Both the position numbers and the translations under genes were made by a program. The notes under the pieces were generated by a model. It was not told the DNA's origin. It worked only from the letters and a program-made list of their open reading frames with translations, and ran no database searches. This document shows positions 7,138-24,135 of a stretch of DNA of 64,000 bases, one piece after another. The stretch is from positions 248,001-312,000 of the forward strand of contig JAEILR010000020.1 in assembly GCA_016109435.1 (NCBI GenBank), read 5' to 3'. The DNA is from Methanomassiliicoccus sp. (GTDB taxonomy: Archaea > Thermoplasmatota > Thermoplasmata > Methanomassiliicoccales > Methanomassiliicoccaceae). Position 1 is the first letter of the stretch; each line of letters opens with the position of its first letter.

Positions 7138-10008
7138 GTGAGCAACATGCCCTACACTGGACCACTGGAAAAGATCGATGACTTCCGCTGGAGGATCCCC
7201 AAGAGCTACAGGGAGGGCATGCGCACGGATGCCATCATATTCGCCAGCGAGCGGATGGTCCCCAGCCTCAGGGAGGACAACGCCCCGGAGCAGGCGGCCA
7301 ACGTGGCGTACCTGCCGGGCATCGTCGGCAGCTCCCTGGCCATGCCTGATATCCACTGGGGGTACGGGTTCCCCATCGGAGGGGTGGCGGCCATGGACGC
7401 CGAGGAGGGAGTGATCTCCCCCGGAGGAATCGGCTTCGACATCAACTGCCTCTGCGAGGGGTCGAGGGTCAGCACCGGGCTGGGTGGGTGGATGAAGATC
7501 GAGGACTTCGAGCGGGAGTTCGGGACATCCTCGCCGGTCAACGACGGCCTCGCCCTGAGCCTGATGGAGGGCAAGACCTCGGTGATGACCTTGGAAAAGG
7601 GTCTGGTGGAGAGGAAGCCTTCGGCCTTTATGAGGAAGCCCAGCGACAGGCGGGTGCTCAAGATCACAACGAGGACTGGCCTCGAGCTCCGATGCTCCGA
7701 GGACCACCCTCTGCTAACCGATAACGGCATGAGGTCGGCGATGCTCCTTAGGCCCGGAGAGAAGGTGGCCGTCAGCTACTTCCAGGGTGTGGAGGTCGAG
7801 CCCCAGGCGGACCGGAGGGAGATCATCCTGGCCAAGATCTTCGGGTACATGCTGGGCGACGGCGCACTATATCGGACGGGAAGGCGGCTACTGGCCAGCG
7901 CGTACGGGGCCAAGGAGGACCTGGAACGCATGCAGTCCGACCTGCGGGAGCTGGGATACAGCTCCAAGGTGTATGGTCGGACCAGGGATCACAGCATACC
8001 GACCCATTACGGAGTGGTTGAGTTCACGGCCACCTCCTACGAGCTGCACGTTCACTCCCGAGAGTTCTCGAACCTGCTGCTGGAAAGGGGGATGCCCGTC
8101 GGCAAGAAGACCGTGTCCGACCACCGGGTACCGGATTGGGTCATGAACGGTTCCCTCCCGGTAAAGAGGGCGTTCGTCGCCGGATTGTTCGGTGCCGAGC
8201 TCACCACTCCCAAGGCGGTGTCCAAGACCTGCTTCTTCATGCCCACCCTCTCTCAGAACAAGAACGACGAGCACCTCGAGTCCGGGAGGCTGTTCCTCAT
8301 CGACGTGATGCGCATCATGGAGGAACTGGGCGTTGAGACGCAGAAGATCAGCGAGAGCTCCGACTTCTTCAACCAGAGAGGGAAGACCTCCAGGCTAAGG
8401 CTGCACATCAGCTCGGACGAGGAGAACGTAATCAGGCTGTACCGCGCCATCGGTTACGAGTACTGCAGGCGGAAGAGCATGGTCGCCGATGTTGCGGTCA
8501 AGTACATGCTCCTCAAGAAACTCCTGCTTGAACGGAGGACCGCCGCGGCGGCGAAGACCAAGGAGCTGAAAAGGAAGGGGCTGAAGCTGAAAGAGGTCCA
8601 GGACCTCCTGGTCGGGGATGACATCAACGCTCGCTTCATCGAGCGGCATTATTACGAGGACGTTGGTCGGAGGATAACCTTGGATTTCATTCCATTCAAG
8701 GAGTTCCTGGAGACAGAGCTGACCCATCTGGAATCGTCCGGTTCGCTGTTCGACGAGATCGCCTCGGTCGAAGAAGTGCCGTACAGCGGGAGCGTCTACG
8801 ACTTCACGGTCGTTGGCACGCACAACTTCGTGGCCGATGGGATCGTGGTCTCGAACTGCGGCGTGAGGCTCATCCGCACCGACCTTGAAGAGAAGGACGT
8901 CCGTCCGGGGATCAAGGACCTCATCGGCATCCTGTTCAAGAACGTGCCCGCCGGCGTCGGCTCCCAGGGAGTGGTCGATGTCGCCTCGGCCCAGATCGAC
9001 GACATCCTGGAGAGGGGAGCGGAATGGGCGGTGGAGAGCGGCTACGGCTGGAAGGAGGACCTCGATGTCACCGAAGAAGGCGGCCGCATGAAGACCGCCG
9101 ATCCGACCAAGGTATCGTCCAAGGCCAAGCAGAGGGGCGTCCCCCAGGTCGGCTCGCTCGGTTCCGGCAACCACTTCCTAGAGGTGGACGTGGTGGACGA
9201 GGTGTTCGACCAGGAAGCGGCGAAGGCCTTCGGCCTGCGGGAGGGGCAGATCACCGTGTCGGTGCACTGCGGTTCCCGCGGGTGCGGACACCAGATCGCC
9301 ACCGACTACCTCCAGGTGATGGAAAGGTACGTGAGGCAGAGCGGGATGCAGCTTCCCGACCGGCAACTGGCCTGCGCCCCGGTGCGCTCCAAGGAGGGTG
9401 AGGACTATTACAAGGCCATGTCCTGCGGGGCCAACTTCGCCTGGGCCAACCGGCAAATGATCCTTCACTGGATTAGGCAGTCGTTCGAGCAGCACTTCAA
9501 GCGGGACGCCGAGAGCATGGGCATGCACCAGGTGTACGACGTGGCGCACAACATCGCCAAGCTGGAGGAGCATCTGGTGGACGGCCAGAAGAGGAAGGTG
9601 TATGTGCACCGCAAGGGCGCCACCCGGGCGTTCCCCGCCGGCCGTCCCGAAGTGCCGGTGAAGTACCGCTCCATCGGCCAGCCGGTGCTCATCCCCGGGG
9701 ACATGGGCAACGGCAGCTACGTGCTGATCGGGACCGACCGCACCATGTCCGAGTCCTTCGGCTCCACCTGCCACGGGGCCGGAAGGGTCATGTCCAGGAA
9801 CGAAGCGCTGCGCAAGTTCACCGTGCAGGGCATCCGCGACGAGCTGGCGGGGAAGGGCATATTCCTCAAGTCGGCGACCAAGGACGGGATACTGGAAGAG
9901 GCTCCCGAGGCGTACAAGAACATCGAGTCGGTCATCGATGTGGTGGTCGGCGCCGGGCTGTCCAAGAAGGTCGCCCGGCTCACTCCCATCGGCGTGATGA
10001 AAGGCTAG
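7138..10008 (+). CDS. rtcB: tRNA-splicing / RNA-repair ligase RtcB, interrupted by an intein
   Basis: 956 aa precursor; removing residues 104-573 leaves a 486-aa RtcB of normal size. RtcB joins 2',3'-cyclic phosphate (or 3'-P) RNA ends to 5'-OH ends with GTP and Mn, completing tRNA splicing in archaea. Extein motifs are MPDIHWGYGFPIGG, GGIGFDIN-C-GVRLIR (the metal-ligand Cys at the splice site), GSLGSGNHFLEVD, VSVHCGSRGCGHQ, the catalytic-region YDVAHNIAK and, near the C-terminus, GDMGNGSYVLIGT followed by STCHGAGR with the nucleophile His. The start is GTG at 7138. The stop CTAG is shared base-for-base with the convergent HD-hydrolase stop. Confidence 0.95.
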   Translation: MSNMPYTGPLEKIDDFRWRIPKSYREGMRTDAIIFASERMVPSLREDNAPEQAANVAYLPGIVGSSLAMPDIHWGYGFPIGGVAAMDAEEGVISPGGIGFDINCLCEGSRVSTGLGGWMKIEDFEREFGTSSPVNDGLALSLMEGKTSVMTLEKGLVERKPSAFMRKPSDRRVLKITTRTGLELRCSEDHPLLTDNGMRSAMLLRPGEKVAVSYFQGVEVEPQADRREIILAKIFGYMLGDGALYRTGRRLLASAYGAKEDLERMQSDLRELGYSSKVYGRTRDHSIPTHYGVVEFTATSYELHVHSREFSNLLLERGMPVGKKTVSDHRVPDWVMNGSLPVKRAFVAGLFGAELTTPKAVSKTCFFMPTLSQNKNDEHLESGRLFLIDVMRIMEELGVETQKISESSDFFNQRGKTSRLRLHISSDEENVIRLYRAIGYEYCRRKSMVADVAVKYMLLKKLLLERRTAAAAKTKELKRKGLKLKEVQDLLVGDDINARFIERHYYEDVGRRITLDFIPFKEFLETELTHLESSGSLFDEIASVEEVPYSGSVYDFTVVGTHNFVADGIVVSNCGVRLIRTDLEEKDVRPGIKDLIGILFKNVPAGVGSQGVVDVASAQIDDILERGAEWAVESGYGWKEDLDVTEEGGRMKTADPTKVSSKAKQRGVPQVGSLGSGNHFLEVDVVDEVFDQEAAKAFGLREGQITVSVHCGSRGCGHQIATDYLQVMERYVRQSGMQLPDRQLACAPVRSKEGEDYYKAMSCGANFAWANRQMILHWIRQSFEQHFKRDAESMGMHQVYDVAHNIAKLEEHLVDGQKRKVYVHRKGATRAFPAGRPEVPVKYRSIGQPVLIPGDMGNGSYVLIGTDRTMSESFGSTCHGAGRVMSRNEALRKFTVQGIRDELAGKGIFLKSATKDGILEEAPEAYKNIESVIDVVVGAGLSKKVARLTPIGVMKG
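7447..8856 (+). mobile_element. Intein with LAGLIDADG homing endonuclease domain in rtcB
   Basis: 470 codons inserted immediately before the metal-binding Cys of GFDIN-C-GVR, the known RtcB intein insertion point. It begins CLCEGSRVS (nucleophile Cys at 7447), has block B as RCSEDHPLLT and block F as VYDFTVVGTHNFVADGI, and ends VVSN before extein Cys (8857). The penultimate residue is Ser where His is usual. The endonuclease motifs are LAKIFGYMLGDG (residues about 230-241) and AFVAGLFGAEL (about 345-355). The second keeps the acidic residue as Glu but has Gly for the usual Asp earlier in the motif. Splicing probably works, since the host gene is otherwise intact; endonuclease activity is uncertain. 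Confidence 0.93.
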
Positions 10009-15077: not shown

Positions 15078-15085
15078 GGGCTGGA

Positions 15086-15448
15086 ATGACCGGAGCGGAA
15101 GACCCACTCAGCAAAGAGATGCAGGCAACCTTCAACCAGTCCAGCTTCCATTCCGGCTTCCTCAAGCTGGCCATACTAAGGATGGTATCCGAAAGCCCCA
15201 TGCACGGCTATGGTATGATGAAGGAGATCGAGCGCATCAGCGAACACACCTGGAAGCCCAGCCCGGGCTCCATCTACCCCGCGCTCCAGGAGCTGCAACG
15301 CTCCGGCTATATCCTACAGGAGACGGTCGGCCGGAAGCGGGTCTACCGCATCACCGAGAGGGGGGACGCGATCCTCGAAGCGGCCCTCAGCCACGTGCAG
15401 AGGGGGGTGCGGTGCCTGAACAACCTCATCGACTACAAGCAGTCGTGA
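15086..15448 (+). CDS. PadR-family transcriptional regulator
   Basis: 120 aa from ATG at 15086. A PadR winged helix is clear: LKLAILRMVSESPMHGYGMMKEIE, then the recognition-helix region KPSPGSIYPALQELQRSGYI and the wing VGRKRVYRITERGDAIL. A short C-terminal helix for dimerisation follows. PadR proteins commonly repress ABC-2 drug or lipid exporters. Such an exporter begins 840 bp downstream at 16283, separated by a divergent E1-like gene, so control of that exporter is plausible but unproven. Confidence 0.9.
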   Translation: MTGAEDPLSKEMQATFNQSSFHSGFLKLAILRMVSESPMHGYGMMKEIERISEHTWKPSPGSIYPALQELQRSGYILQETVGRKRVYRITERGDAILEAALSHVQRGVRCLNNLIDYKQS

Positions 15449-15451
15449 GGC

Positions 15452-16225
15452 TCAGCTCTTCCCACAGGCCGGACAGTTCTCGGCCGGGGATATAGATATG
15501 GTGTCCCAGCTGTTGTACTGAAGGTCGCCGATCAGCAGGCTGGAGCGCAACGGTTCGCCGACCCCTGTCAGCAGCTTGATGGCCTCCGCCGCCTGGAGGC
15601 AGCCGAAGACCCCGGCCACCGGGCCGAGGATGGGGAACACCGCTGTCTTGGGCGGAGCGGACGGAAGGAGGCAGCGCAGGCAGGGCGTCCGGCCCTTCTC
15701 CACCACCGTGAGCTGGCCGCGAAGCCCCTCCACCGCCGCATGCACCAGGGGGGTGGACGACCTCAGCGCGTGATCGTTCAGGACGAACCGTGGAGGATAG
15801 CTGTCCAGGCAGTCCAGCAGGACGTCCGCGTCCCGGAACACCTCCTCGATGTTCTTCTCGGTCACCTCCACCGTCCTTGCCTCCACCTCGATGCCGGGGT
15901 TCAGTCGCCGGAGCTTCCAGGCCGCCGATTCCGGCTTCGGCCGGACGTGAACGTCCTCGTCCCAGTGCAGGATCTGGCGGTTGAGATTGGTATCGTCAGG
16001 GGTCTGAGGATCGGCCAGGACCAGCCTGCCGATCCCTGCCGCGGCCAGGTAGGTCGCGGCCGGGCTGCCCAGCCCGCCCACTCCCATTATGCCCACGGTG
16101 CTGCCGGACAGCCGGCGCTGCCCCTCCTCCCCAAAGCCGGGGATGATCATCTGCCGGACATAGCGGTCCATCGAGGACATGCGGAGCGGGGAACGCCTAC
16201 GTGCCTCTTCATCCTGCCGGTCCAT
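15452..16225 (-). CDS. ThiF/MoeB/HesA-family E1-like adenylyltransferase
   Basis: 257 aa; a shorter start at 16180 (MSSMDRYVRQM) is equally plausible because family members begin near RYxRQ. Features are the ATP-binding GVGGLGSPAATYLAAAG, LADPQTPDDTNLNRQ (the Asn-Arg-Gln of E1 enzymes), LLDCLDSYPPRFVLND, and the two zinc pairs CLRC and CPAC. It would adenylate the C-terminal Gly of a ubiquitin-like sulfur carrier (MoaD, ThiS or SAMP). No catalytic Cys loop is obvious between residues 170 and 190, as in many archaeal UbaA/MoeB variants. Confidence 0.88.
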   Translation of the reverse strand: MDRQDEEARRRSPLRMSSMDRYVRQMIIPGFGEEGQRRLSGSTVGIMGVGGLGSPAATYLAAAGIGRLVLADPQTPDDTNLNRQILHWDEDVHVRPKPESAAWKLRRLNPGIEVEARTVEVTEKNIEEVFRDADVLLDCLDSYPPRFVLNDHALRSSTPLVHAAVEGLRGQLTVVEKGRTPCLRCLLPSAPPKTAVFPILGPVAGVFGCLQAAEAIKLLTGVGEPLRSSLLIGDLQYNSWDTISISPAENCPACGKS

Positions 16226-16282
16226 CTTCCATATGCCCGATTAATATTATACCGGAAATAAGCATTCCATCACAGGTCTGCA

Positions 16283-17206
16283 ATGGTCGAGAGCGTCATC
16301 ACGGTCAGCAAGCTCGTGAAGAAGTACGGTGACTTTACCGCGGTCGATGGCATCGACTTCGAGGTGCACCGGGGGGAGGTGTTCTCCATCCTCGGTCCCA
16401 ACGGGGCGGGCAAGACGACCACGGTGGAGATCATCGAGTGCCTCAAGACCAAGACCTCCGGGGAGGTCAGCATCCTGGGGATGGACATCGGCAGGGCGAC
16501 CCGGGACATCAAGAAGAGGATCGGGGTGCTGCCCCAGGACTTCAACGCCTTCGACCTGCTGACGGTGAAGGAGAACATCGAGTACTTCGGGGGGATGTTC
16601 CGCGAGCATCTGCCGGCCGAGGACCTCATCACCCTGGTCGACCTCAAGGATAAGCGGGACGAATACTTCAAGAACCTCTCCGGGGGACTGAAGCAGCGGG
16701 TCGGGGTGGCCATATCGATGGTCAACGATCCGGACATCATCTTCCTGGACGAGCCGACCACTGGCCTCGACCCCAAGGCCCGGAGAGAGGTCTGGGAGGT
16801 GGTCAAGGGCCTGAAGGAGAAGGGCAAGACCATCATTCTCACCACCCACTACATGGAGGAGGCCGAGGTGCTCTCCGACCGCGTGGCCATCATGGACGGC
16901 GGCCGTTTCATCGCCATCGGCAGCCCCAAGGACATCATCGACCGTTACGGCACCGGCACGGTCCTCATGGTGCGGGGCGGGGGAGCGTCAGCATACGAGA
17001 AGCTGAAGACCATCTCTTCCCGCGTGGAGCGCAAGGGGGAGGACGTGGTGGTCCGTGTGGACCGCAAGGAGGTACTGCCGGAGGTGGTGAAGGTCCTGGA
17101 GAGCAGCGGCTCGTTCTATGAGGAACTGCAGCTGCGCCGGTCGACGCTGGAGGACGTGTTCCTGTCCCTCACCGGCCGGCGGCTGGGCGAGGGGGAGGTG
17201 GACTGA
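16283..17206 (+). CDS. ABC-2 transporter ATP-binding protein (system 1)
   Basis: 307 aa. Walker A is LGPNGAGKTTT (residues about 37-47), the signature LSGGLKQRVG, Walker B IIFLDEPTTGLDP, and the switch His is in ILTTHYMEEAE. The C-terminal 90-residue extension is typical of DrrA/CcmA-like exporter ATPases. The permease gene starts 2 nt after the stop. This is probably an efflux pump or lipid/drug exporter; the substrate is unknown. The promoter region shared with the divergent E1 gene contains gattaatattatacc. Confidence 0.92.
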   Translation: MVESVITVSKLVKKYGDFTAVDGIDFEVHRGEVFSILGPNGAGKTTTVEIIECLKTKTSGEVSILGMDIGRATRDIKKRIGVLPQDFNAFDLLTVKENIEYFGGMFREHLPAEDLITLVDLKDKRDEYFKNLSGGLKQRVGVAISMVNDPDIIFLDEPTTGLDPKARREVWEVVKGLKEKGKTIILTTHYMEEAEVLSDRVAIMDGGRFIAIGSPKDIIDRYGTGTVLMVRGGGASAYEKLKTISSRVERKGEDVVVRVDRKEVLPEVVKVLESSGSFYEELQLRRSTLEDVFLSLTGRRLGEGEVD

Positions 17207-17207
17207 G

Positions 17208-18314
17208 ATGAGGTCGGGCCACAGGATATGGATAAATTTCGTTGCCCAGGCCAAGATGTTCTTCCGCAGCATCGGCTCGGTGTTCTGGACGGTGGCGTTC
17301 CCGGTGCTGCTGATACTGCTGTTCGGGGCCATCTTCAGCGGCTCCGGCTCGGCCACTTACACCCTGTATGTGCAGGACCTCGACAGCTCCGAAGCCTCGG
17401 CGATGTACATCCACGGGCTCAACGAGACCAAGGTGCTGAACCTCATCATGGTGGGACCGGAAGTGGATGCGACCTCGTACATCAAAGACAACTCCATCGC
17501 CACCTTCCTCATCATACCTGAAGGGTTCCACAACGCGTTCGCTCCCGAACCATTTCAGCAGAACACTTCAGTGGAGCTGAGGATGGATAATTCCAGCAGC
17601 TCCGCCATGGCCGTGGCCTCGGTGGTCAACGCGGTCACCCAAAGCGTCAACCTGGGACTGGCCAACGGATCTATGCTGATCAGCACCGACCTGCAGGGGA
17701 TATCCGCCAACAACCAATACACCTACATCGACTTCTTCCTGCCCGGGGTCATCGGCCTTACCGCCATGACCTCCACGGTCAACTGGATGGTGGGCCTGCA
17801 GACCCGCTACCGCTCCAACGGCATCTTCAAGAAGCTGGCCACCACCCCCATAACCCAGCTGGAGTGGCTGGTGTCGCTGATGATCTGGCAGGTCATTACC
17901 GTGTTCATGTCGGTGGCCATCATCCTGATCGTGGGCATCCTGGCGTTCGACGTGCATCTGACCCTGGACCTCCTGTCCATCGCCATCATCATCTTGACCA
18001 GCGCGATGTTCTCGGCCCTGGGTCTGATCATCGCCAGGTTCGTCAAGGAGGAGGAGACGGCAGGGGCCGCGGCCGGCGCCATCACCTTCCCCATGATGTT
18101 CCTGGGCGGTTCCTTCTTCCCCCTGGAGTCCATGCCCGATTACCTGCAGGCCATCGCCAAGGTGATGCCCCTGACCTATGTCAACAACGGGCTCAGGGAC
18201 GCCATGATCTACGGCAACTCGTCCGGGGCGTTCTACAACCTGATGATCGTGGCCGTGCTGACCGCGGTGTTCGTCATCGTCGGGGTGGCCATCTCCACCT
18301 GGAAGCAGGACTGA
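17208..18314 (+). CDS. ABC-2 type permease (system 1)
   Basis: 368 aa from ATG at 17208, right after the ATPase stop. There is one N-terminal helix (about 25-45), a 150-residue extracytoplasmic domain with several N-glycosylation-like NxS/T sites (NET, NTS, NSSS), then five to six C-terminal helices. The ABC2_membrane signature is FLGGSFFPLESMPDYLQAI, with MPLTYVNNGLRD. It pairs with the upstream ATPase as a half-transporter dimer exporting an unknown substrate. Confidence 0.9.
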   Translation: MRSGHRIWINFVAQAKMFFRSIGSVFWTVAFPVLLILLFGAIFSGSGSATYTLYVQDLDSSEASAMYIHGLNETKVLNLIMVGPEVDATSYIKDNSIATFLIIPEGFHNAFAPEPFQQNTSVELRMDNSSSSAMAVASVVNAVTQSVNLGLANGSMLISTDLQGISANNQYTYIDFFLPGVIGLTAMTSTVNWMVGLQTRYRSNGIFKKLATTPITQLEWLVSLMIWQVITVFMSVAIILIVGILAFDVHLTLDLLSIAIIILTSAMFSALGLIIARFVKEEETAGAAAGAITFPMMFLGGSFFPLESMPDYLQAIAKVMPLTYVNNGLRDAMIYGNSSGAFYNLMIVAVLTAVFVIVGVAISTWKQD

Positions 18315-18367: not shown

Positions 18368-19386
18368 TCATTTCCAGCGCACCAGTATCTGCTCCCTCTG
18401 GAAGGTCTTCAGGCAGACCAGGACGATACCCACGTCGACCAGTAAGACCACCGCTGCCAGCGCCAGCATGATGACCCATCCCAGAGTGAACAGGCCGGAC
18501 AGGGCGACGACAAAGAACACCACCACCGGCAGAACGATAAGCGAGCCTATCTGCTGGGAGGCCCGCACATCGCTCACCTTGGACGACACCACGACGTTGA
18601 GGGCGATGCTCATGACGCAGAACAGCGGAGCGATCAGGAACACCCCTATCATCCACACCGGGTCCGGCAGGGGCGCGTAGCCCAGCGGTCCTTCGGTCAG
18701 GAAGTTTACGATGATGGCGAAGGGGATGAACGACAGCCAGGTGGCCAGCATGCACGGGATAAAGATCGACAGCGACTTGCCCAGGAGAAGCTCGGCGTCC
18801 GTGGTAGGAGTGGCCAGCAGGGGCTCCAGGCTCCGGTTGATCTTCTCTCCCACGAAGGAGTACGAGGCCATCACCGTAGGCAGGACCACCGGGATCATGA
18901 TGAAGAACAGCAGCAGGAAGTTGATGAACTGCAGGAGGAATGTCTGGTCCGCGTTGTCGCCGCCGAGGTCCACGCCGGAGAACATCGAACCGAAGGTCGA
19001 GAGGCCGATGTAGTTGGACGAGAACATCGCCGAACCGTTGAGCGTCGAATTGCCCACGAAGGAATCGCGCACCAGGCAGTTGGTCAGGTTCGACGCTTCG
19101 AACCTGCAGTTGGCGGCCACCGCGTCAGTGAGTTCGCATCTAAGGAACGTTGCGTTGGAATACGTACCGCCGGTCACGACCTGGTCCACGAACACGGTGA
19201 CGTCGGTCGGGTTCCCCACGTCCAGGGGCTGGTCCCCGGACAGGCTCATGGTGACCGGGGCCAGATATATGGCCGGCAGCACGACCGCCAGTAGCAGGGG
19301 CATCAGCAGAACGGAGTACATGACGTACTTGTTGGTGCGGAACTCGGAGAGGTCCTTGCGGGCCACAACCCACAGCTTATCCCATC

Positions 19387-19390
<4 letters not shown>
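18368..19390 (-). CDS. ABC-2 type permease with pentapeptide-repeat insert (system 2)
   Basis: 340 aa. The start is TTG at 19390, overlapping the stop of the ATPase gene (TTGA) behind a gggggaaa ribosome site. TM1 is at residues about 25-46 and five to six helices follow from about 152 to the end, in the ABC-2/NatB style (PVVLPTVMASYSFVGEKINRSLEPLLATP). The loop between TM1 and the rest holds about a dozen tandem five-residue repeats, residues 80-142. The C-terminus is basic (REQILVRWK). It forms an exporter with the adjacent ATPase; the substrate is unknown. Confidence 0.88.
18965..19153 (-). other. Pentapeptide-repeat (right-handed beta-helix) segment within the permease
   Basis: Residues 80-142 of the permease. 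Reading every fifth residue, position i is F, L, A, F, L, V, V, L, M, Y, T, F, L and position i-2 is A, C, A, C, S, C, S, S, S, S, L, S, V. This is the hydrophobic-centre plus small-residue pattern of pentapeptide-repeat proteins. The stretch begins ATFLRCELTDAV and lies in the predicted extracytoplasmic loop. Confidence 0.8.
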
Positions 19391-20310
<920 letters not shown>

Positions 20311-20501: not shown

Positions 20502-21125
20502 TCAGAACGAGGGGCCGGTCTGGCCGGAGGACCCCTGACCTCCCAGGGGAACGGGAGAGGACCCGGAGTTCAGGGCGGCCCTCAGCTCGTCGACGGATAT
20601 GGAAAGGATGACCATCTCGCCTATGGCCTCCACGTCCCTGGTCCGGATCGGGATGAGGGACGAGGCCATGAAGGTGCGTTGAAGCGACAGTCGGTCCATG
20701 GCATCGCGGTCCAGCTTTACCTGGATGTAGGGTATGGACCATTCGGTCTCGGTGTCCACGAACACGTTGTCGACGTTCCCCAGGAAGGTGGCGTTGGAGC
20801 AGATGACCCTCATGCCCATGAACTTCCCGGCGGGGATGAGGTGCTCGCCCTCCGGCTCCAGGATCTCGCCGAGAGCGGACACCGGGCGGCGCATTATGAC
20901 CGCGTCGGATACGGACTGCAGCTCGGTGGTCTTGACATAGATCTTGTTGACCCCGAAGAAGCGGCGCTTGCTGCCCACAGCCTCCTCCATGCCCCGTCGC
21001 AGGCCGATCTTGAGGGCCTTCAGCTTCCATGCCTTGAGGTCCATCCCCACCCCCTCGATGGTACCGATGACCTTGGCATCCGAGCTGATGAGCTCCAACC
21101 CTATGATCTCTTCAAGACCGAGCAT
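20502..21125 (-). CDS. Double PRC-barrel domain protein
   Basis: 207 aa. Two PRC-barrel-like modules: residues about 5-75 (IIGLELISSDAKVIGTIEGVGMD...KIYVKTTEL) and about 100-165 (GKFMGMRVICSNATFLGNVDNVFVD). A low-complexity Gly/Ser/Pro tail follows (GQGSSGQTGPSF). Archaeal PRC-barrel proteins are linked to RNA metabolism and cell division (CdpB-type proteins), but this protein cannot be assigned further. A smaller PRC-barrel protein is at 31610. Confidence 0.75.
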   Translation of the reverse strand: MLGLEEIIGLELISSDAKVIGTIEGVGMDLKAWKLKALKIGLRRGMEEAVGSKRRFFGVNKIYVKTTELQSVSDAVIMRRPVSALGEILEPEGEHLIPAGKFMGMRVICSNATFLGNVDNVFVDTETEWSIPYIQVKLDRDAMDRLSLQRTFMASSLIPIRTRDVEAIGEMVILSISVDELRAALNSGSSPVPLGGQGSSGQTGPSF

Positions 21126-21184
21126 CGTGGCGGATACGGCACACCACCTTTAAATTAATTTCACCGCCCCGATGATAGGCTTCC

Positions 21185-22807
21185 CTAGCGACACACCGTG
21201 CGGCTCTGCTCCCGCAGGAACTGCTGAAGATAGTGGACGGAACCGGTGCCCTTGCCGGTGGAGCCGGACGACTTCCAGCCGGTGAACGCCTGCCCGCCGA
21301 CCATGGCGCCGGTGGACCCTCCCCGCTGACGGTTGGCGTACACCACCCCGAACTCGATGTTGTCGAAGAAGTACTTCATCTCCACGCGGTTCTGGGTGAA
21401 TATCCCGGCGGTGAGGCCGAACTCGGTGGCATTGGCCCGCTGCAGTGCCTCCGGAAGCGTGGAATATCGCTGGGCGCACAGGATGGGAACGAACAGCTCC
21501 CTACGGACGAGCTCATGCTCCTCCGGGAGACCGGTGACGATCGTCGGCCGGGCATAGTGCCCGCGGGCCAGATCACCTCCGTCGGCCCTCTCGCCGCCCG
21601 TGAGCACCCGGCCGTCCTTCCTTGCCGCCTCCGACCACCTCAGGTAGTTGTCCAGAGCGGTCTTGGTGATGACCGGGCCCATGAAGGTGTCCCGCTCGAA
21701 GGGGTCGCCCACCACCAGCCCGTCGGCCAGCTCGACCATCTTGTCGAGCAGCGGCTCGAAGATCGTCTCGTGAGCGTACAGCCTGGAGCAGGCCGAGCAC
21801 TTCTGTCCGGAATAGCCGAAGGCCGAGGCGATGACCCCCCGGGCGGCGGCGTCCAGGTCCGCCTCCTGGGTGACGATGATGGGATTCTTGCTGCCCATCT
21901 CGGCGATTACCGGCCGTTGCCTCCAGGGTTGCGAGGTCATGATGTCCAGCCCCACCTGCAGCGAGCCGGTGAACACCACGCCGTCGATAAGAGGGTGGTG
22001 GGCCAGGGTCCCCCCGACCTCCGACCCCGGGCCGGATACCATATTGATGACCCCGTCCGGTATGCCCGCCCTATACATGATCTCGTAGAACATCTGCACC
22101 GGCAGGGGGGCGGTGGAGGAGGGCTTCATGACCACGGTGTTGCCGGTGAGCAGCGCTCCGGTGGTCATCCCCACGGTGATCGCCAGGGGAAAGTTGAACG
22201 GGCAGATAACTGCCCACGCCCCGTACGGGCGGAGGGACACGGTGACCTCCTCCTCGGGATAGGGGGGATCGCTGACCCGCTCGAAGCCGTTGCTGCGGCG
22301 CATCTCTCCGCAGTAGTACGCAATGAAGTCGAGGGCCTCGTCCACGTCGGCCATGGCCTCGTACCGGTTCTTGCCGTTATCGAGGGTGATGGCCGCGGCC
22401 AGCTCATACTTGCTCCTCCTCATCAGGTCGGCGGCCTTCTCGAAGATGTGAACGCGCTCTCCCCAATCCTCCCTGGACCACGTCCTGAACGCCTCCCTCG
22501 AGGACCGCACCGCCTCGTCGGCGTCATCCGCGGTCCCGTTCTGGAACAGACCGACCACGATCTCCTCGTCCCCCGGGCTGAGGTCGTGGAACTGCCTCTC
22601 GGAGAGACGGGGCTTACCATCTATGTGATTCGGATAGTCCGTCTCCACCTCCTGGACCTGGGCCAACAGGCGTTCGGCCGCCCGTTCGTAACCGCTGTGG
22701 AAGCTCTCTCCATCCCCCTGCATGGCCAGCCGCTGGTAGGTATCCTCGTTCCGGAAGGTCACGGTGATCAACCTCTCATCAAAGGATGGCACCCCCGGAT
22801 ATATCAT
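21185..22807 (-). CDS. Aldehyde dehydrogenase, probable 1-pyrroline-5-carboxylate dehydrogenase
   Basis: 540 aa, the usual length for P5CDH. It oxidises glutamate-gamma-semialdehyde (P5C) to glutamate with NAD(P). The catalytic Cys lies in FGYSGQKCSACSRLY and the general-base Glu in VIAEMGSKNP. NAD-binding parts include CPFNFPLAI and FTGSLQVG, and GQAFTGWKSSGSTGKG closes the active site. The extended N-terminal region with YPNHIDGK resembles the RocA/PutA branch. There is no proline dehydrogenase gene nearby, so the physiological substrate could also be another semialdehyde. Confidence 0.85.
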   Translation of the reverse strand: MIYPGVPSFDERLITVTFRNEDTYQRLAMQGDGESFHSGYERAAERLLAQVQEVETDYPNHIDGKPRLSERQFHDLSPGDEEIVVGLFQNGTADDADEAVRSSREAFRTWSREDWGERVHIFEKAADLMRRSKYELAAAITLDNGKNRYEAMADVDEALDFIAYYCGEMRRSNGFERVSDPPYPEEEVTVSLRPYGAWAVICPFNFPLAITVGMTTGALLTGNTVVMKPSSTAPLPVQMFYEIMYRAGIPDGVINMVSGPGSEVGGTLAHHPLIDGVVFTGSLQVGLDIMTSQPWRQRPVIAEMGSKNPIIVTQEADLDAAARGVIASAFGYSGQKCSACSRLYAHETIFEPLLDKMVELADGLVVGDPFERDTFMGPVITKTALDNYLRWSEAARKDGRVLTGGERADGGDLARGHYARPTIVTGLPEEHELVRRELFVPILCAQRYSTLPEALQRANATEFGLTAGIFTQNRVEMKYFFDNIEFGVVYANRQRGGSTGAMVGGQAFTGWKSSGSTGKGTGSVHYLQQFLREQSRTVCR

Positions 22808-22833
22808 CCCGGCGGTCGGCAGGCTTCACGTCA

Positions 22834-24135
22834 TCACTGGCCGTTCAGAAGCCTGGGACGCCACTCCCTCTCGATAAGGAGGAGATAGATGCCGCTCAGG
22901 ACGATGATGAACAGCCCTGTGACGAACATGATCTCCACCAGGATCATGGGCGTGAAGATAATGCCCAGCGCCACCACCGCCCCTACCAGGGAAAGGAGCA
23001 CCACGACGGATAGTCCGATGATGGTGATGTACGCATGGCCGTCGGTCGCCAGACCGTACAGCATGAACAGGTTGGCCAGGCCGAGGAGCATCATCGCCCC
23101 TCCCAATCCCTGCAGTATGGGAGCTATGAGCTCCTTGTAGGGGTTGGCCGGGAGCAGGATGTTCAGCACGAAGTCGGGAAGGAGGAGGTAAACCGCCACG
23201 ACCGCCCCGGAAAGGGCCAGGGTCATGGCGAAGGAGGTCTTGAGTATGCGGTGGGTCTCCCCCTTCTCGGCGTGGGCCTTGGATATCTTGGGGAACATGA
23301 CCGTGGACACCGCCCCGGGCAGGAACAGGATTATCTTGGCCAGGGAGGACGCGGCGGCATAATAGCTGGCCTGGTCCAGGGGAAGCAGGGCAGTGGCGAT
23401 GATGACATCGACCTGAGTAAGGATGGTGAATCCCAGGATGGCTACCGTCGCCGGGACCGTGAACCGCCAAATCTCCTTGGCCTCCACCACCTTGGGCTTG
23501 ATGAAGAAATATCTCCGGACCAGGAAGAAGGATATCGCGGTGGAGAAGGCGATCCCGATGATGACCCCGCCCAAGGCCCCGGCCACTCCCAGCCCCAAGA
23601 CCACCATGCCCACTCCCAGGGTGAGCTTGAGGACGAAGTTGCCTACGGTCATGGTGCCGAAGGCGGTGAACCTCTGGAGGGCCTGCAGCGTTCCCTGGCC
23701 GACAGGCGACACCAGGGAGATGAAGACCCCAATGGCGAGCAGGAATATGAGCAGGTTGGACGAGATGGCGAAGGTCTCGCCCACCCCCGGGACCAGCAGG
23801 ACCACCGTGACGATGATGGAAAGGGCCACGCCGGCGATGGAGGTGAACTTCAGTATCCTCTTCATCAACCAGGCCACGATGTTGTCCTCGCCCAGGGCGT
23901 TGTACTTGGACACGTATCGAATGATAACGTTCTGTACCGCGCTGGACGGAACGGTGACGATGTAAAGTATCGCCAGAAGGGTGTTCAGTTCGGCCAGGTC
24001 AAGGGGGATCAGGTTCGCCATCATGACCTGATAAAGGAAGTTGCACCCGCCCCCGACCACGGTGGCCACGAGCATTATGAACGCCGGTCCGGCCATCCCC
24101 TCGGCGTTGATGAAGCGGGCGAACTTCTCGAACAT
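22834..24135 (-). CDS. Polysaccharide/lipid-linked oligosaccharide flippase (MVF superfamily)
   Basis: 433 aa with about twelve hydrophobic helices and the oligosaccharide-flippase pattern: an N-terminal GPAFIMLVATVVGGGCNFLYQ, later GAVSTVMFPKISKAHAEKG, a signature region of Wzx-like proteins. It probably moves lipid-linked sugars across the cytoplasmic membrane for glycan or S-layer glycosylation. A second member of the superfamily lies at 30101. No glycosyltransferases flank it. Confidence 0.85.
   Translation of the reverse strand: MFEKFARFINAEGMAGPAFIMLVATVVGGGCNFLYQVMMANLIPLDLAELNTLLAILYIVTVPSSAVQNVIIRYVSKYNALGEDNIVAWLMKRILKFTSIAGVALSIIVTVVLLVPGVGETFAISSNLLIFLLAIGVFISLVSPVGQGTLQALQRFTAFGTMTVGNFVLKLTLGVGMVVLGLGVAGALGGVIIGIAFSTAISFFLVRRYFFIKPKVVEAKEIWRFTVPATVAILGFTILTQVDVIIATALLPLDQASYYAAASSLAKIILFLPGAVSTVMFPKISKAHAEKGETHRILKTSFAMTLALSGAVVAVYLLLPDFVLNILLPANPYKELIAPILQGLGGAMMLLGLANLFMLYGLATDGHAYITIIGLSVVVLLSLVGAVVALGIIFTPMILVEIMFVTGLFIIVLSGIYLLLIEREWRPRLLNGQ

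Follow-up and report, generated by a model that had tools for sequence, protein, structure and literature searches.

Characterised pentapeptide-repeat (PPR) proteins, as reviewed in 2021, include gyrase inhibitors, E3 ligases, HglK, RfrA and SV2, of which SV2 is the transporter-like one (PMC8145042). In SV2A/B/C the repeats form a quadrilateral β-helix of four to five coils (PMC8145042); this luminal domain (LD4, PF23894) occupies the extracytoplasmic loop between TM7 and TM8 of a multi-pass, transporter-like protein (PMC4885069). HglK of cyanobacteria is also a membrane protein with PPRs and has been linked to glycolipid placement at the heterocyst wall (PMC8145042). It has four putative transmembrane (TM) segments and a C-terminal tail of 36 repeats, and is neither an ABC permease nor a case of a loop insert. 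A β-helix also stands on the outer face of an ABC-2 body in NosDFY, where it is supplied by NosD, a separate, larger subunit of another β-helix type.

The protein described here is an archaeal ABC-2 permease with PPRs in its first extracytoplasmic loop, a fusion that the original prediction called unusual. For ABC permeases this judgement stands: in the open-licence papers searched, we found no ABC or ABC-2 permease described as containing a PPR. It does not stand for transporters at large, because the SV2 luminal domain has that layout already.

The permease is encoded in a 64,000-nucleotide stretch of DNA, the whole of which we call the window; it comes from an archaeal genome most closely related, among named groups, to Methanomassiliicoccus and other Methanomassiliicoccales (phylum Thermoplasmatota). 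Its gene, its predicted membrane parts and its partner gene are:

18368..19390, minus strand: 340-aa ABC-2 permease carrying the PPR insert, started by TTG (open reading frame and translation, PF12679, orthologue starts)
19232..19330, minus strand: helix of residues 21-53, with TM1 inside it (AlphaFold2/DSSP)
18836..18952, minus strand: helix of residues 147-185, with TM2 inside it (AlphaFold2/DSSP)
18404..18799, minus strand: TM3-TM6, the permease body (AlphaFold2/DSSP; NosY-like in Foldseek)
19387..20310, minus strand: DrrA-like ABC ATP-binding protein (PF00005 E=1.7e-32; TIGR01188 E=9.8e-81, below cut-off)

The protein has the hallmarks of an ABC-2 permease: a PF12679 match over the cut-off (E=4.4e-13), six TM helices and an adjoining ABC ATPase gene. 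Orthologues start at the same site, with the sequence MRxDK or similar and mostly with ATG, GTG or TTG-type starts. The TTG start of the permease overlaps the TGA stop of the ATPase gene (TTGA), so the two are probably a coupled gene pair. An ATPase homologue is present in 47 of 49 insert-bearing loci, and when the flanks of all 49 were clustered no neighbour other than this gene was conserved across the lineage, which points to a stand-alone exporter, presumably an (ATPase)2(permease)2 complex with a homodimeric permease and two helices outside. An operon partner for the helix was sought and rejected, since nothing but the ATPase is conserved beyond the family. Positive-inside reasoning, applied to the charged N-terminal stretch ahead of TM1 (KDLSEFRTNK) and to EKINRS behind TM2, leads us to take the TM1-TM2 loop as extracytoplasmic. 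These observations support the predicted placement of the insert, in the extracytoplasmic loop after TM1 of an ABC-2 permease.

Other genes lie to either side. A second ABC exporter pair (window 15083-18314) converges on the PPR permease; it comprises an ATPase (16283-17206) and an ABC2_membrane_3 permease ending at 18314, beside which are a PadR-like regulator (15083-15448) and a ThiF-family gene (15452-16225). The extracytoplasmic loop of this second permease is not a PPR, and homologues of the permease occur in only 12 related loci. Beyond the ATPase gene (20502-24135, minus strand) are a PRC-barrel protein, an aldehyde dehydrogenase and a polysaccharide-flippase-like protein, neighbours that the exporter has in close relatives but not further afield.

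Within the loop, the following elements were located:

18968..19198, minus strand: PPR β-helix, residues 65-141, TM1-TM2 loop (AlphaFold2 strands, periodicity p<0.0005, profile matches to PPR structures)
19076..19159, minus strand: best PF00805 match, residues 78-105 (whole-genome search, E=0.05, below cut-off)
19013..19018, minus strand: S-N pair, residues 125-126, just ahead of an irregular pentad (alignment, pentad entropies)

The repeat had been placed at 18965-19153, which corresponds to residues 80-142; the AlphaFold2 helix begins earlier, with strands across residues 65-141. Residues 75-124 form ten consecutive pentads (GTYSN ATFLR CELTD AVAAN CRFEA SNLTN CLVRD SFVGN STLNG SAMFS), in which the residue at position i is hydrophobic in nine and that at i-2 is small in all ten. 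This total of 19 out of 20 was reached in none of 2000 shuffles of the loop (mean 12.6±1.1). These pentads are followed by an irregular one (IGLST) and then by two weaker ones, so that the earlier count of about thirteen repeats was fair, as was its description of hydrophobic i and small i-2 positions.

Searches with PF00805 gave a divided answer. The match in the window permease, although below cut-off, is the sole one at E≤10 in the genome (~2.2 Mb), and the cut-off is exceeded at the same place in several orthologues (E=3.2e-5 in G054, 2.5e-4 in G019 and 4.4e-4 in G034). The explanation may lie in the variant of the repeat. Of the pentads in 49 insert-bearing loops, 94% have L/I/V/F at position i; at i-2, 42% have S, 21% C, 13% V, 11% T and 6% A; and 38% have N at i+2. 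By its sequence, the repeat follows a beta-branched form of the PPR code, and this may account for the weak score of the window protein. Periodicity was kept in all 49 loops examined, down to ~35% identity, so the insert and its repeat are retained in orthologues, and chance periodicity was rejected on the basis of the shuffles and these homologues.

AlphaFold2, given an alignment of 26 orthologues, predicted ~15 short strands with a period of five across residues 65-141, with pLDDT mostly 75-87 in this block, and a second model, of a homologue ~36% identical (L061), had the same strand pattern with block pLDDT up to 91. The check by structure prediction therefore favoured the proposal, with period-5 β-helix strands predicted between the TM1 and TM2 helices. 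A profile built from the 26 orthologues matched Np275-276 (E=8.2e-8), MfpA (8.5e-7), AlbG-type proteins, designed PPR-like solenoids and SV2 (5.4e-4) in the PDB; every one of the 32 strongest matches was to a PPR protein or a designed PPR-like solenoid, and fell within profile positions ~55-165. Foldseek searches with the insert returned the SV2 luminal domain at the top, along with Rfr32, MfpA and Qnr, while the permease body matched NosY of NosDFY (7o0y_D, query TM 0.47). Despite strong local matches, both predicted helices superposed poorly on solved PPR helices in Foldseek (rmsd commonly 6-13 Å, target TM about 0.2-0.5). In strand register the models agree with PPR folds, but the poor superpositions mean that they may err in handedness or in coil geometry. 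Of the square right-handed β-helix originally proposed, the period-5 strands and the PPR matches were recovered; its right-handedness is still putative.

That the loop is instead a Ser/Thr/Asn-rich disordered segment, periodic by chance and with no PPR at all, would fit the below-threshold PF00805 score of the window protein. Set against the 49 periodic loops, the two AlphaFold2 models, the PPR matches at E=8e-8 and the orthologues that exceed the PF00805 cut-off, this explanation is extremely improbable.

The same pentad statistics bear on what the helix might do. Its proposed role as a rigid substrate chute, that is, a channel or track for the exported substrate, draws on location beside the exit and on nothing else. 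The interior of a PPR helix is filled by the i and i-2 side chains, here L/I/V/F and S/C/V/T, so the helix would not be a chute; the ~15 strands moreover correspond to a predicted helix of fewer than four coils. We therefore set this proposal aside as very unlikely. The i-2 cysteines, it had been suggested, could stack inside the helix, and they do sit at inward-facing positions, with only one pentad Cys found anywhere other than i-2. This regularity, and the resemblance of the body to NosY of a copper-loading machine, would suit a metal-binding or redox ladder in a metal-loading transporter. However, the Cys count varies between 0 and 5 among proteins and Cys alternates with Ser at the same sites, as expected for packing, and no metal-related neighbour recurred in the flank clustering, leaving such a ladder with hardly any likelihood.

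Matches came from 32 of the 101 relatives searched and were mostly full-length and unbroken, and the 26 full-length orthologues align almost gap-free through the insert. In the same order, most genomes of family f1 have the system, and family f2, possibly a host-associated or reduced lineage, is without it, bar two very weak matches. The order also contains unrelated long membrane PPR proteins (L139, 841-2952, minus strand, and L141, 1-1683, plus strand; genomes G051 and G073), in which apparent TM segments precede many repeats in an HglK-like layout. In a sample of the phylum Thermoplasmatota (295 genomes), 42 had a match and 22 had the full-length insert-bearing form, as judged by query coverage; nine of these 22 fall outside the class of the window. 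A recent or local event was rejected accordingly, because two or more classes of the phylum have the insert.

Homologues without the insert, with TM1-TM2 loops of 18-43 residues, were found in Bathyarchaeota, Chloroflexota, Hadarchaeota, Nitrososphaerota and others; those of Bathyarchaeota, Chloroflexota and Thermoplasmatota share the permease body, with 39-48% identity over the best segments. Both forms coexist in some genomes. In G060, an insert-bearing permease (L133, 1565-2713, minus strand) and an insert-less paralogue (7139-8017, plus strand) lie ~4.4 kb apart on one contig. In a tree of the permease body, built with insert columns removed and including 50 insert-bearing rows, the insert-bearing label needs at least 3 changes, compared to 28.8 with shuffled labels, and a tree grouping all insert-bearing rows was not rejected (p-AU 0.66). 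These comparisons allow, without proving it, that the insert arose just once within Thermoplasmatota.

These loop lengths bear on a rival reading, in which the helix gates or covers the exit of the translocation path, tightening or selecting release and docking nothing. TM1 and TM2 frame the exit in ABC-2 permeases, the helix is attached directly to both, and loop length is near-fixed within the order (115-117 aa in most). Yet insert-less relatives retain the rest of the permease with no lid, and in the wider scan the insert-bearing loops of Thermoplasmatota, all periodic, vary from 115 to 150 aa. A lid is in our estimation rather unlikely.

Mean entropy is 2.03 bits in the insert and 0.99 in the body, which makes the insert the more variable part. 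Every insert comparison that could be computed gave dN/dS <1 (0.05-0.69), with low values for the closest pairs. For the window sequence against L004, dN/dS was 0.69 in the insert (18968-19198) and 0.19 in the body; the insert surface is possibly relaxed or diversifying in this pair. One face of the helix is somewhat more conserved (permutation p=0.03, a weak signal), and it includes Asn126, which is invariant in the 26 orthologues. Variability, dN/dS below 1 and a more conserved face are together what a scaffold would show, possibly one with a contact face.

The insert is also rich in N-x-S/T sequons, with 125 observed compared to 76±6 expected and none of 500 shuffles reaching this number; the shuffles kept the composition of each repeat position, and kinship of the sequences makes the test overstate significance. 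Sequon density is 5.1 per 100 residues in the insert and 0.5 elsewhere, and a gene for an STT3-type oligosaccharyltransferase is present in the genome. The sequon excess and the STT3 gene support N-glycosylation, and the insert is probably modified in this way. Such density, together with high sequence turnover in which the fold code alone is kept, could also describe a passive outer shield, a compact, glycan-bearing and protease-resistant cap with no specific partner. One invariant Asn, one more conserved face and retention of the insert over deep divergence speak against a mere shield, and we consider it doubtful.

Of the roles suggested in the original prediction, we infer that a scaffold or docking surface is the best class of explanation. 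Specifically, the helix would be a rigid docking or mechanical platform outside the cytoplasm, probably N-glycosylated, with one copy per half of a homodimeric two-gene ABC-2 exporter, and not a conduit; we give this platform roughly an even chance of being correct. A DrrA-like ATPase would work with a permease, presumably a homodimer, each copy of which bears a PPR helix on the outer face of the membrane. The helix would be rigid and, being tied directly to TM1 and TM2, would move when the ATPases close and hence with the ATP cycle. There it could dock an envelope partner, cargo or the helix of the second protomer, much as NosD is seated on NosFY and the SV2 luminal helix serves as a protein-docking surface. 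That the flanks hold no lineage-wide partner gene, and that the conserved-face signal is weak, count against this reading. A bolder version, which we regard as unlikely, makes the exporter a NosDFY-like, ATP-driven mechanical device whose β-helix is part of the permease itself. In each ATP cycle the dimer's two PPR helices would grip an extracytoplasmic client and let it go; this would be an equivalent, evolved convergently in archaea, of the luminal domain of SV2.

How far do the known systems match? The archaeal exporter and NosDFY share a NosY-type ABC-2 body with a β-helix on its outer face, but the archaeal helix is of the PPR type and lies within the permease chain, whereas NosD is a separate subunit. 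Sequence similarity of the permease to NosY is weak (E=0.27), and the archaeal loci, with only the ATPase conserved beside the permease, encode no conserved separate NosD-type β-helix protein. The likeness to SV2 is likewise one of architecture only. SV2 is a 12-TM vertebrate protein of the MFS fold, whereas the archaeal protein is an ABC-2 permease with its helix between TM1 and TM2; the LD_SV2 profile matched 2 of 25 members (best E=4e-4). LD4 is N-glycosylated and the archaeal insert is sequon-rich, a resemblance that, like the layout, is most likely convergent.

The combination is thus apparently undescribed and deeply conserved, with repeat and permease each known and the layout precedented in another transporter fold. 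A PPR domain inside an ABC permease is one more of the few PPRs whose place in the cell is definite, and natural pairs with and without the insert, even on one contig, allow the role of the domain to be asked. It also offers a small archaeal parallel to the luminal helix of SV2.
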